This document shows, piece after piece, positions 6,700 through 63,929 of a DNA stretch of 64,000 nucleotides; within the stretch, counting starts at the first letter, position 1; every line of letters starts with the position of its first letter. The translations under genes were made by a program, and so were the position numbers. Origin of the DNA: Pseudarthrobacter siccitolerans. Its GTDB lineage: Bacteria; Actinomycetota; Actinomycetes; Actinomycetales; Micrococcaceae. Location: NCBI RefSeq assembly GCF_030823375.1, contig NZ_JAUSXB010000001.1:2046001-2110000 (forward strand), in the 5' to 3' direction. Below the pieces are notes generated by a model, which worked only from the letters and a program-made list of their open reading frames with translations, had not been told where the DNA came from and made no database searches.

Positions 6700-7537
6700 G
6701 TGCTGCTCCTCGAATCAATGCTGCCTGGAGTGCTGAAGTGGACGCCTGGTCCGGCCCGGCAGGAAAGGAATTGCCGGGCATGGAATCAAGGCTGTTGAAG
6801 CTGTAAAGATGGATACCAGCGATGTTGCCGGGCTGGCTTTCGAGGCCGGCGATCAGGCTGTCCGGCGAGTAGCGGTCGCCGGACAGGAGTTTGCGGGCCA
6901 GCGGGCCCTTGCGGCTGAGGAACTTGAGGGAACTTCCGACGCCGATCTGCCCGGCCAGTGCCACCAGTTTGGTCCGCGGGACGGACCCGGCCACGCCCGC
7001 CCACAGGGGCAGGTGGACGCCTTCACGGCGCAGGAGCGCCGCGAAGTCATGGATTTTCCCGGCGGAGAAGCACATCTGGGTGACCACGTGCATGGCCAGG
7101 TGCTGCTTAGCCAAAAGACCGTCGAGCAGGTCCACCGGGCTAACCAGCGGATGGCCCTCCGGGTACCCCGCGACACCCACCCGCATCATCCCGCCGCTGT
7201 ACTGCGCGATGTCCTCGAGGACCGGAAGCGCCGAGTCATAGACACCGGCAGGCTCTTTCCGGTCTCCCCCAATAACGAAGACTTCGCGGATACCCGCCGC
7301 ATCGCAGACGCGGACGATCTCGGTGAGCTCGGCGCGGCTGCGGAGGCTGCGGGCGGCGAGATGTGGCACCACGGTGTAGCCGGCGTCGCTCAGCTCCACC
7401 GCGGTGCGCATGGTCCGCTCGATGCCGTGGTGCGGCAGGCACGTCACGCTAAGCGTGGTGGTCTTGGGCACCAGGGCCTGGACCTGCTCAACGATTCCCT
7501 CTGTAGGGATGATTTCGATTCTGATGGGGAACATCAT
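6689..7537 (-). CDS. Methylenetetrahydrofolate reductase-like protein
   Basis: The 282-residue protein has the layout of a TIM-barrel FAD-dependent MetF-family enzyme: an early IEIIPTEG strand, VTCLPHHGIERTMRTA near residue 33, VPHLAARSLRSRAEL near 58, EVFVIGGDRKEP near 84, VGVAGYPEGHP near 120 and a final GIHLYSFNS. It is more distant from classical MetF than usual and lies in a glycine/serine operon, not with metH or metE. It probably uses 5,10-methylene-THF, the product of GcvT and GlyA, but may act as an alternative reductase or dehydrogenase. Two ATG codons in a row (7537, 7534) follow AGGA; the second has better spacing. Confidence 0.75.
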   Translation of the reverse strand: MMFPIRIEIIPTEGIVEQVQALVPKTTTLSVTCLPHHGIERTMRTAVELSDAGYTVVPHLAARSLRSRAELTEIVRVCDAAGIREVFVIGGDRKEPAGVYDSALPVLEDIAQYSGGMMRVGVAGYPEGHPLVSPVDLLDGLLAKQHLAMHVVTQMCFSAGKIHDFAALLRREGVHLPLWAGVAGSVPRTKLVALAGQIGVGSSLKFLSRKGPLARKLLSGDRYSPDSLIAGLESQPGNIAGIHLYSFNSLDSMPGNSFPAGPDQASTSALQAALIRGAARDN

Positions 7538-7593
7538 TGGTCCTGTCTGTTCATCAGGTATTGGTCATCAGATCTGGCCGGAGGCCGGGGCCA

Positions 7594-8601
7594 TCACGCC
7601 GTTGCGGCCAAAAGGGAGCTGGCTTCCTGGCGGGTGCTGCCGGAGGACTCGATGTGGGCGAGTTCGGCGGGGATCTCCCAGCCTTTCTTCCGCATCGCGG
7701 TGGCCCAGAGCCGGCCGGCGCGGTAGGAGGAACGGACCAGCGGGCCGGACATCACCCCAAGGAAGCCGATCTCGTCCGCTTCCTGCTGCAGGTCCACGAA
7801 CTCCTGCGGCTTGACCCACCGGTCCACCGGCAGGTGCCGCTCGGACGGGCGCAGGTACTGGGTGATGGTGATCAGGTCGCACCCGGCCTCGTGCAGGTCC
7901 CGCAGCGCCTCGGAAATCTCTTCGCGGGTTTCGCCCATGCCCAGGATCAGGTTGGACTTGGTCACCATGCCCAGGTTCCGGCCCTGCGTGATCACATCCA
8001 GGGACCGGTCGTACCGGAACGCCGGCCGGATCCGCTTGAAAATCCTCGGCACCGTCTCCACGTTGTGGGCGAACACCTCGGGCTTGGAATCGCAGATCGC
8101 GGCGATGTGTTCGGGTTTGCCGGAGAAGTCCGGGATCAACAGCTCCACCCCGGTGCCGGGGTTCAGCTCATGGATCTTCCGGACCGTCTCTGCGTACAGC
8201 CACACACCCTCGTCCTCGAGGTCGTCCCTGGCCACCCCGGTGACGGTGGCGTAGCGCAACTGCATGGCCTGCACGGACCTTGCCACCTTGGTCGGTTCGA
8301 ACCGGTCCACCGGGGAGGGTTTGCCGGTATCGATCTGGCAGAAATCACACCGCCGGGTGCACTCGGAGCCGCCGATCAGGAACGTGGCTTCCTTGTCCTC
8401 CCAGCACTCAAAGATGTTGGGGCAGCCGGCCTCCTCGCACACCGTGTGCAGGCCTTCCTTCTTCACCAGGTTCTTCAACCCGACGAATTCCGGGCCCATC
8501 TGGACCTTGGCCTTGATCCACTCCGGCTTGCGCTCCACCGGGACAGCCGAGTTGCGCTGTTCAACGCGCAAAAGCTTCCGGCCTTCAGGTGCCAATGTCA
8601 T
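7594..8601 (-). CDS. lipA: Lipoyl synthase
   Basis: This radical-SAM enzyme inserts two sulfurs into octanoylated lipoyl domains. The auxiliary cluster motif [12 protein letters not shown] and the radical-[12 protein letters not shown] motif are both present, as is the C-terminal RSSY used by the auxiliary cluster. Length 335 is normal when read from the ATG at 8601, which has GAAGAG upstream; an in-frame ATG at 8622 would overlap sdaA. Its place between sdaA and the metF-like gene, downstream of gcvH in the same direction, suggests that it supplies lipoylation of GcvH when the glycine operon is induced. lipB is not in the window. Confidence 0.93.
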
Positions 8602-13311: not shown

Positions 13312-16164
<2,853 letters not shown>

Positions 16165-16224
16165 AAGAGGAACTCCATAATTCAGGTGGCGCCTAAGCAC
16201 CACGTTGATTCGGGTTCCTCCCCG

Positions 16225-16418
16225 CTCTGTATTGGACCTGAGAGTTTTGCGTTGCCCTGCCGTTTCGCAGGACGCCACTTGCACCGTCGGTGAGCCCGGT
16301 TGCCCGGACTGCTTTCCAGAGTTGCCTTGCCGCGGCGGTACGTGGGCCTGAGAGATTCCTGGGGAGGATTTGCTCCTACGGCGCCTGCAGAACGTACCGG
16401 CAGGACTCTCCCGCCGCA
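16225..16418 (-). ncRNA. Tandem glycine riboswitch
   Basis: On the minus strand, the 5' aptamer starts at GCGGGAGAGTCCTG (16401-16415) and continues through GGCGCCGTAGGAGCAA and AATCTCTCAGGC, the class hallmarks. A second aptamer follows, with ACTCTGGAAAGCAG as linker and a final AAAACTCTCAGGTCC at 16231-16250. Two aptamers in series upstream of gcvP are the classic arrangement. The leader is 60 bases from the gcvP start. It very likely turns on gcvPTH and downstream genes when glycine is high. Confidence 0.95.
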
Positions 16419-16419
16419 G

Positions 16420-16425
16420 ATCATA
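16420..16425 (-). promoter_or_regulatory. Putative -10 box of the glycine operon
   Basis: TATGAT on the minus strand lies a few bases before the first conserved base of the riboswitch, which is where transcription should begin. A weak -35 (TGTCAC) is about 18 bases upstream. The rest of the 16426-16644 interval shows a loose GACGGCGC/GCGCCGTC inverted repeat (16549-16576) and no gene. Confidence 0.5.
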
Positions 16426-16644
16426 AGCATGTGCCACTGGTGGGTGACACGGCTCACACCTTACAGGGTTGGGTGGCTGGATGCAAAATTACCGTCCGAT
16501 AGGTCTGAAATCCTACCCGCACCCGGGATGCTTCATTCGCGGACGGACGACGGCGCGCCGTGCCGCCGGCGCCGTCTCACCAAAGTGCCGCGAGGCTCCG
16601 CCCCCTCCTGTGCCTGCGCTCCTCGGGCCTGAGACAATGGCCGA

Positions 16645-62284: not shown

Positions 62285-62333
62285 AGCTGAAGGGACTGGG
62301 TTCGGTGATACACCGGGCCCAGTCCCTTCAGCT
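62285..62333 (+). terminator. Rho-independent terminator of the levanase gene
   Basis: AGCTGAAGGGACTGGG and its exact complement CCCAGTCCCTTCAGCT form a 16-bp stem with a 17-base loop, ending in TTTT. It is 37 bp after the levanase stop. Confidence 0.9.
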
Positions 62334-62473
62334 TTTCCCTTCGAATCAATGATCCATCCATTCCGCATGGTTATCTTCAAAATCTTGCGCTTTTGTTGCA
62401 GCTCTTGTGACCCTAGTCTCATCATTACAAGCTCTTCGTCCATCAAATCCATACTTGTCCGATTAAGCGCCGG

Positions 62474-62706
62474 GCAGGCAGCATCGGGATGCTGTTCCAC
62501 TGGAACGGCATCCCCTGACAGCCTTCGCCCATGGGAAGGAGAGCTGTCCCGTGCCCGTGAAGGGTGCTTCGGTGGCCTGAAACCTGGGGAGGTATCCTCA
62601 TCGAAGCATCCTTCACGGGCCATGGGGCAGCGCCTGCAACTTTGCCGGACCAGTGCCAGGCCGTCCGAATGGAAGGCCTGGCACCAAATACCCCTACCAA
62701 AAGGAG
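62474..62706 (+). ncRNA. Candidate structured regulatory leader upstream of formaldehyde dehydrogenase
   Basis: Five helices can be drawn: a closing helix GCAGGC (62474-62479) with GCCTGC (62632-62637); hairpin A GGGATGC/GCATCCC (62486-62514) with inner GTTCC/GGAAC; hairpin B GACAGC/GCTGTC (62517-62548); hairpin C with 19-bp arms (62553-62571 and 62602-62620) and an inner GAGG/CCTC; and hairpin D GTGCCAGGCC/GGCCTGGCAC (62653-62684), 16 bases before the AAGGAG site. The 62543-62550 segment can instead extend helix C by pairing with 62624-62631. The ligand is unknown and no known class was recognised. Confidence 0.55.
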
Positions 62707-62711
62707 TGTCC

Positions 62712-63929
62712 ATGTCAGGAAACAGAGCCGTCGCCTACAAAGAACCCGGCGTCGTCGAAATCATCAACACCGACTACCCGACGTTCGAACTCAAAGATGG
62801 GCCCGGCGTCAACCCCGCCAATGTGGGCCGAAAAGTACCCCACGGCGCGATCCTGCGCACGGTGACCACCAACATCTGCGGCTCGGACCAGCACATGGTT
62901 AGGGGCCGGACCACTGCCCCTAAGGACCTCGTCCTTGGCCATGAAATCACCGGCGAAGTGGTGGAGGTCGGTCCGGACGTGGAGTTCATCAAGGTGGGAG
63001 ACATTGTCTCTGTACCTTTCAACATCTCCTGCGGCCGTTGCCGGAACTGCAAGGAGCGCAAGACGGGCATCTGCCTGAACGTCAACCCTGACCGCCCGGG
63101 CAGCGCCTATGGTTATGTGGATATGGGCGGCTGGGTGGGCGGCCAAGCCGAATACGTGCTGGTCCCCTACGCTGACTGGAACTTGCTCAGGTTCCCGGAT
63201 CGCGACCAGGCGCTGGAAAAGATCATGGACCTGACCATGCTGTCCGATATCTTCCCCACAGGCTTTCACGGCGCCGTCACCGCCGGAGTGGGCGTCGGAT
63301 CCACCGTCTACATTGCCGGTGCCGGCCCGGTGGGCCTCGCGGCCGCCGTCGGCGCGCAGCTGCTCGGTGCAGCCGTCGTGATTGTCGGCGACATGAACGA
63401 AGACCGCCTGGCTCAGGCCCGCTCCTTCGGCTGCGAAACGGTGAACGTCACCAAGGGCGATCCGAAGGACCAGATCGAGCAAATCCTTGGCGTCCCGGAA
63501 GTGGATTGCGGCGTCGACGCCGTAGGGTTCGAAGCCCGTGGTCACGGGAAGGACGCTTCCCACGAGGCTCCCGCCACCGTGCTGAACTCGCTCATGGACA
63601 TCACCGCTGCAGGCGGGGCTCTTGGCATTCCCGGCCTGTATGTCACCGGCGACCCTGGTGGAATTGACGAAGCAGCAAAGCACGGCTCCCTGTCACTGTC
63701 CCTGGGCACCGGATGGGCAAAGTCCCTGTCGTTTACCACTGGACAGTGCCCCGTCATGTCGTACAACCGCCAGCTGATGATGGCGATCCTGCACGACAAG
63801 GTCCAGATCGCCAAGGCAGTAAACGCCACAGCGATCCCACTTGAGGATGCACCGCGCGGTTACGCCGAATTTGACGCCGGTTCGGCAACGAAATTCGTGC
63901 TGAATCCGAACGGATACGTCAAGGCGTAG
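62712..63929 (+). CDS. Glutathione-independent formaldehyde dehydrogenase-type zinc alcohol dehydrogenase
   Basis: The 405-residue medium-chain dehydrogenase has catalytic zinc ligands in TTNICGSDQHMV and LGHEITGEVVE, structural zinc Cys in CGRCRNCKERKTGIC, and the NAD site GAGPVGLAAAVGAQLLGA. The inserted loops (SAYGYVDMGGWVGGQAEYV and FPTGFHGAVTAGV) and length match Pseudomonas-type formaldehyde dismutase/dehydrogenase, which keeps NAD tightly bound. It would oxidise formaldehyde to formate. AAGGAG at 62701-62706 gives five-base spacing. The long folded leader suggests RNA-level control. Confidence 0.9.
   Translation: MSGNRAVAYKEPGVVEIINTDYPTFELKDGPGVNPANVGRKVPHGAILRTVTTNICGSDQHMVRGRTTAPKDLVLGHEITGEVVEVGPDVEFIKVGDIVSVPFNISCGRCRNCKERKTGICLNVNPDRPGSAYGYVDMGGWVGGQAEYVLVPYADWNLLRFPDRDQALEKIMDLTMLSDIFPTGFHGAVTAGVGVGSTVYIAGAGPVGLAAAVGAQLLGAAVVIVGDMNEDRLAQARSFGCETVNVTKGDPKDQIEQILGVPEVDCGVDAVGFEARGHGKDASHEAPATVLNSLMDITAAGGALGIPGLYVTGDPGGIDEAAKHGSLSLSLGTGWAKSLSFTTGQCPVMSYNRQLMMAILHDKVQIAKAVNATAIPLEDAPRGYAEFDAGSATKFVLNPNGYVKA

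Follow-up and report, generated by a model that had tools for sequence, protein, structure and literature searches.

Does the region upstream of the formaldehyde dehydrogenase gene fdhA in Pseudarthrobacter siccitolerans specify a regulatory RNA, and if so, of what kind? The gene belongs to the window, i.e. the whole stretch of 64,000 nucleotides of contig NZ_JAUSXB010000001.1 that was analysed. An earlier, sequence-only reading described a riboswitch-like leader, in which a 6-bp closing helix encloses three hairpins and one segment can pair with either of two partners, and named a nested set of palindromic repeats as the alternative. Its assignment of the gene holds, as ORF 62712-63929 matches the TIGR02819 profile with 749.6 bits (cut-off 637, E 5.6e-226).

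The fdhA leader and its predicted fold

The 281-nt leader (62440-62720) folds with a predicted energy of -156.4 kcal/mol (z = -9.6), a stability that none of 200 dinucleotide shuffles attained. The predicted minimum-energy fold contains the long hairpin, the hairpin at 62486-62514 and that upstream of the ribosome site (Table 1). The 6-bp closing helix is missing from it, as is the competing hairpin at 62517-62548. All complementarities pointed out earlier are present in the inverted-repeat listing. The proposed architecture survives in part: the bases of the closing helix are complementary and the long hairpin is conserved, but the closing helix is absent from the minimum-energy fold, and it and the other hairpins are missing in distant leaders. 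The hairpin at 62653-62684 was absent from most FDH>fdhA leaders when those listed were read by eye. What stands is the claim of a structured, conserved leader RNA before fdhA in Micrococcaceae, in a one-carbon setting.

A simple sigma-70 scan of the leader region in the window found no promoter. Since a strong terminator-like hairpin parts the leader from the preceding levanase-like gene, the fdhA leader probably has a promoter of its own. No terminator was found in the window sequence 3' of the RNA core.

Anatomy of the conserved hairpin

The conserved unit is smaller than the leader first described: it is a 78-nt imperfect hairpin (62549-62626), whose outer stem reaches 62543-62631. It was delimited with a covariance model derived from 24 copies, and the second hit of this model in the window's genome is the opposite-strand mirror of the same core. 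In the consensus, P1 is variable and often longer than the model (relatives carry this stem too, with other sequence), the URAAN/RYYYY region is mostly mismatched, P2 reads GGUGYUUCGR/YCGRARCAYC, and J2/3 is an asymmetric internal loop with GCCUGAA facing AUUCCUC or a shorter segment. CCUGGGGAGG is almost invariant among 90 distinct sequences.

The variation of internal loop 1 was followed in 122 distinct cores, defined as matches to a regular expression (L098 and L164 match the covariance model only and hence were excluded). The loop is fully paired in ten of them, including the window's copy; positions 62558-62562/62611-62615 are paired as UGAAG/CUUCA in seven copies, the window's and those of six relatives, and with other sequence in three more. 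To judge from the sequences, this perfect pairing looks like quasi-palindrome correction. Because the URAAN region can be fully paired in this way, the apical part (P2, J2/3 and P3) is the strongest contender for the functional site. Two cores (L099 and L104) contain ~15 extra bases between P2 and CUGA, partly repeated UUUCGG- or UACGG-like units.

Table 1. Features of the fdhA leader region (positions in the window)
Feature	Positions	Strand	Basis or remark
Strong intrinsic-terminator-like hairpin, 3' of levanase-like gene	62286..62332	+	terminator scan
6-bp closing pair	62474-62479/62632-62637	+	inverted-repeat listing
Upstream hairpin	62486..62514, arms 62486-62499/62501-62514	+	lineage-specific; some relatives keep the 3' half only
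Alternative hairpin GACAGC/GCUGUC	62517..62548, pairing 62517-62522/62543-62548	+	rival to outer P1; lineage-specific, not general
P1 outer stem, 5' arm GCUGUCCCGU	62543..62552	+	pairs with 62622-62631; inverted repeat
Conserved RNA core, match to 78-position covariance model	62549..62626	+	G000:C1:2108549-2108626, 90.8 bits, E 7.2e-24
Long hairpin	62553-62574/62599-62620	+	22-nt arms, 91% complementary
Inner P1 and internal loop 1, 5' side (URAAN)	62553..62562	+	fully paired with 62611-62620 in the window's copy
P2, 5' arm GGUGCUUCGGUG	62563..62574	+	highly conserved; some compensatory C-G/U-A, many G-U variants
J2/3, 5' side GCCUGAA	62575..62581	+	conserved; CUGA replaced by CUAA in 16/90 distinct sequences
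P3 hairpin ACCU-GGGG-AGGU	62582..62593	+	near-invariant; GGGG complete in 89/90 distinct sequences
J2/3, 3' side AUCCU	62594..62598	+	length varies
P2, 3' arm CAUCGAAGCAUC	62599..62610	+	alignment
P1 outer stem, 3' arm AUGGGGCAGC	62622..62631	+	pairs with 62543-62552; inverted repeat
14-nt-arm hairpin upstream of ribosome site	62653..62684	+	lineage-specific
Shine-Dalgarno AGGAG	62702..62706	+	sequence
fdhA, glutathione-independent formaldehyde dehydrogenase, 405 aa	62712..63929	+	TIGR02819

Selection on RNA versus DNA

One hundred chosen loci yielded 99 matches and 90 distinct sequences, whose alignment was fitted to the structure of the model. Standard pairs occupy 97.4% of its 2069 pairing cells, and changes on both sides were seen at 10 of the 23 pairs, a result equalled in none of 500 shuffles and lost when the partner was slid. 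Our own tree-aware test over all column pairs reported none at E<=0.05 (best pair 6-71, E 0.37; pair 1-76 of outer P1, kept in 89 of 90 sequences, E 0.47); with the 23 structure pairs as the only ones considered, 6-71 reaches E about 0.003. The covariation check suggested by the sequence-only reading thus gave a divided answer: both-side changes are in its favour, but significance over all column pairs was reached by none. The element varies so little that the covariation it shows is modest.

The non-Watson-Crick cells comprise 164 G-U, 8 A-C and 46 others, counted in related sequences that are not independent, and two pairs account for 94 of the G-U cells. The preponderance of G-U over A-C fits selection on RNA read from the gene's strand. 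If the core were instead a DNA operator, palindromic and recognised by a transcription factor (the neighbouring GntR/FCD protein, for example), neither mismatch should be favoured. The core is indeed quasi-palindromic and a GntR-type gene occurs in many mapped clusters (one scanned), but the mismatch counts and the existence of a better separate candidate for an operator make this explanation very unlikely.

That candidate is the palindrome TGATATATC...AATATCA, found at most 400 nt upstream in 43 of the 122 loci, about a third; of 2000 random windows drawn from these loci, 42 contain it. The window's example among the 43 is a poor match. It would fit a promoter or operator just 5' of the RNA. 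In 10 of 122 loci it ends at P1, and therefore transcription may begin just 5' of P1. TGATATATC-N-AATATCA, with examples upstream of the core in L077, L129 and L138, is perhaps the operator for the GntR/FCD regulator, whose gene is found in many of the clusters that contain the core.

Compared between the same genome pairs, identity is 0.87 in the core, 0.75 in the P1 arms and 0.56 at fourfold-degenerate sites of fdhA (54 of 75 loci labelled fdhA; flanks compared without gaps give 0.30). Genome pairs that average only 51% at the fourfold sites are still 85% identical in the core. We regard it as very likely that the element is a conserved functional RNA.

Taxonomic distribution and comparison with known RNA families

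At E<=0.01 the covariance model matches 122 of 206 genomes of the genus. The list of copies, which excludes opposite-strand mirrors and two weak hits (G032, E 0.0013; G114, E 2.5e-4), neither of them inspected, holds 124 copies in 120 of the 206 genomes, two copies being found in four genomes only. The alternative raised by the nested palindromic look of the leader, namely a mobile or repeated (REP-like) palindrome that is here by chance, would predict many dispersed copies per genome; with nearly always one copy per genome, and with mapped loci that are nearly all one-carbon loci, it is scarcely credible.

Searching 59 genomes at the DNA level with the 281-nt leader retrieved 27, two of which (G040 and G012) had short, unrelated matches and were dropped; 16 of the 25 accepted ones matched in the long hairpin only. 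The search of the family gave matches in 49 of 395 genomes; eight of these are outside the genus, of which four were accepted, all from Sinomonas. Even draws of the order and the class, run with a stricter filter that loses weak matches, gave 5 of 396 genomes (all from the window's own genus) and 4 of 296 (three from the own genus and one rejected). The pattern scan of named genomes found 71 stretches: 68 belong to Arthrobacter, Pseudarthrobacter, Paenarthrobacter and Sinomonas, and three (L181, L212 and L230, with 10.8 bits, no hit and 11.6 bits, respectively) were ascribed to chance. The pattern is present in Paenarthrobacter aurescens TC1 (L239), whose copy has loop 1 in its usual open form. 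The weak covariance-model hits L100-L103 (G144:C34, G261, G457, G510) and L252 (G960) were likewise judged to be chance, as was L095 (G406), a terminator-like stem without the apical motif. The plasmid scan identified a single unannotated record, from Arthrobacter sp. StoSoilB13, in which fdhA, moeA, folD and FDH are present according to tblastn. As far as these genomes tell, the RNA element has a narrow taxonomic range, comprising the Arthrobacter group and Sinomonas.

An Rfam match, which the sequence-only reading would have taken as a refutation, was not obtained. Rfam 15 (4227 models; membership was assigned at the gathering score or better, on the + strand) reported no family at the fdhA leader when compared with the whole window, the only family found being the glycine riboswitch, elsewhere. 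Searches of 62300-62760 at E up to 10 retrieved chance-level snoRNA, miRNA and sRNA models only, and those of the leaders of five relatives at E up to 1 gave only chance-level matches. Rfam 15 presumably includes both the THF-II riboswitch and the Moco RNA motif. The ZTP (pfl) riboswitch, which is associated with C1/folate genes and has an architecture unlike that of the element described here, shares the gene setting but gave no Rfam match either. The two RF00504 matches (65.9 and 39 bits) lie side by side at 16217-16423 (-), not at the fdhA leader, and overlap the 5' part of ORF 13312-16437 (-), which by eye reads like the glycine decarboxylase GcvP; this is an ordinary tandem glycine riboswitch.

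The THF-II riboswitch (folE motif) resembles our element in being a simple RNA in a folate/C1 gene setting, with folE present in many of the element's clusters; the available excerpt of its description reports a simple architecture, common upstream of folE (PMC6800512). The element analysed here, however, precedes fdhA or moeA and lies downstream of folE where folE is present, has no Rfam match at the window's leader or in the five relatives' leaders, and is actinobacterial, whereas THF-II is described from Gram-negative bacteria (PMC9881143, excerpt). The Moco RNA motif, a riboswitch candidate, precedes molybdenum-cofactor genes and has Actinobacteria among its carriers (PMC2408646, excerpt), which is reminiscent of the 30 of 122 copies found before the molybdenum-cofactor gene moeA; it differs in that no Rfam match was obtained here and that 73 of 122 copies precede fdhA. 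With orphan structured RNA motifs from comparative genomics the element has in common a conserved structure, a gene association and the status of an orphan, and it differs from them in that it has neither a match in Rfam 15 nor a description in the titles and abstract openings of the papers listed by the literature searches. We conclude that the element is a new, real and conserved RNA family, by its sequence features a candidate riboswitch-like leader in kind.

Genomic context

Among the 122 distinct copies, the next gene is fdhA in 73 (all 92-100% identical to the window's fdhA), an fdhA remnant in two, moeA in 30 and no reference gene in 16; one copy is followed by a gene for a GMC oxidoreductase ~1.2 kb downstream. 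The RNA, conserved on the gene's strand, mostly precedes fdhA or moeA and is co-directional with them. In L045 and L106 fdhA is represented 3' of the core by remnants only (followed by moeA in L045), as if a decayed fdhA had left the RNA before the next gene. L086 and L093, without a reference gene next to the core, have an MFS transporter 3' of it, and L082 and L094 have no co-directional gene closely downstream.

Twenty loci were mapped over 12.7-18.4 kb with a crude gene caller and similarity labels (profile scans were run on sample proteins only). With L095 rejected, 17 of the 19 are clusters of the dimethylglycine/folate/formate type, which hold some of purU, a DAO/GCV_T protein (dimethylglycine-oxidase type), FTCD_C and folD, and as further members an FdhF/YdeP-type oxidoreductase, folE, fdhA, moeA, fdhD and moaE. 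L094 has folD and, by eye, betaine-type genes on both sides. The window's copy has fdhA alone beside the core and no cluster.

The core lies less than 400 nt upstream of 75 of the 79 genes of the window's fdhA type (E<=2.7e-260). A second fdhA type, ~88-90% identical and common in the genus among the matches listed, was not found among the fdhA genes that adjoin a core. In 18 loci there is no reference cluster gene within ~1.6 kb upstream of the core and fdhA, and the genomes concerned have no cluster-type FDH (best match ~58% identical, none in the E = 0 group); that core and fdhA persist together in these loci argues for a function in the leader of fdhA. The element is nevertheless dispensable, since two genomes (G082 with L244, and G198 with L245) keep FDH followed by fdhA without a core, with a similar linker before fdhA. 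In two others (G035 and G026) the window-type fdhA stands under another leader.

In 100 loci the homology of the upstream reference gene ends 32-968 nt (median 96) before P2, i.e. the element often sits between co-directional genes, and elsewhere it is close to the presumed operator. Such positions would suit a passive 5'-end or intercistronic stabiliser, which would protect the message that follows and keep it in proportion to FDH/FolD without any sensing. A passive stem, however, does not need the 85% identity of the core, loop bases included, that is retained at 51% fourfold identity, and we consider this explanation improbable.

Predicted function

Regulation in cis of the following gene is likely. 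The mutually exclusive folds proposed by the sequence-only reading were not supported as a general switch: over the 122 loci, the 5' arm of the outer stem finds 9.05 pairs upstream versus 8.37 in shuffles (p<=0.05 in 7% of loci), and no conserved alternative fold was found. The window's own copy has 15 versus 10.3 pairs (p 0.20), and its lineage shows some excess (12.9 versus 9.4). The P1 arms are very stable (class means from -23 to -38 kcal/mol; the single GMC locus, -14), hence an exchange of P1 is unlikely. Reading the listed leaders by eye, we saw no shared terminator or anti-Shine-Dalgarno segment; in FDH>fdhA, the largest class (31 loci), the linkers listed are mostly short and seemingly open to the eye, and GGGGCCCC in some moeA leaders could pair with the ribosome site.

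As a whole, the element is best explained as part of a leader that regulates the following gene in cis, plausibly an orphan riboswitch with a one-carbon ligand; to this reading we assign a probability of roughly 0.4. The element would be transcribed as the 5' leader of fdhA or moeA, and the long variable P1 would present the conserved apical domain (P2, the CUGA/CUAA internal loop and P3), which may serve as the recognition site. A one-carbon metabolite, either a C1 form of folate or an adduct of formaldehyde, would bind there and set the amount of FdhA or MoeA, presumably by way of Rho or the access of ribosomes and not through an intrinsic terminator. Taken by itself, direct sensing of a small molecule by the RNA has somewhat less than an even chance. 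In its most specific form, the proposal is that of a new riboswitch class of the Arthrobacter group and Sinomonas, which senses a one-carbon intermediate of betaine/dimethylglycine breakdown (again a C1 folate or a formaldehyde adduct) and adjusts both formaldehyde dehydrogenase and the molybdenum-cofactor genes that serve formate dehydrogenase; we put it forward only as a speculation, and a rather doubtful one in all its details.

The chief competitor is a reader made of protein: an RNA-binding regulator or an endonuclease (e.g. RNase III) could recognize the apical domain and set the stability or translation of the fdhA or moeA message, the RNA itself sensing no metabolite. One long, very stable imperfect hairpin without a conserved alternative fold, near-invariant loop bases and the lack of a shared platform at the ribosome site among the leaders listed are all compatible with such a reader, and the narrow taxonomic range could track a lineage-specific protein. 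On the other hand, no candidate partner was identified, and the conserved bases of the internal loop exceed the needs of a generic RNase III stem, which requires less. We prefer metabolite sensing on account of the near-invariant loop bases and the single pathway to which the genes belong, but a protein or RNase as the reader is almost equally likely.

With either reader, the element is an uncatalogued, strongly selected RNA family of common soil bacteria, tied to one pathway, apparently from betaine/dimethylglycine to the oxidation of formaldehyde and formate. A C1 metabolite as its ligand would make it, to our knowledge, the first such sensor in formaldehyde detoxification; should it be read by a protein, it would point to a new RNA-binding regulator in Actinobacteria. 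Its small size and conserved apical domain, and the existence in nature of loci that have the element and loci that lack it, make these predictions directly testable.

Additional observations

In the window's genome, the next called gene past fdhA (L080:11005-14649, minus strand) encodes by eye a MetH-like methionine synthase. MetH is also a folate C1 enzyme; this neighborhood is probably due to chance. Another locus (L091) contains a 134-aa ORF between folE and the core (7522-7926, plus strand), with no NCBIfam match at E<=1e-20, and the end of a similar frame seems to be left in others (L251, L007), as if decayed.
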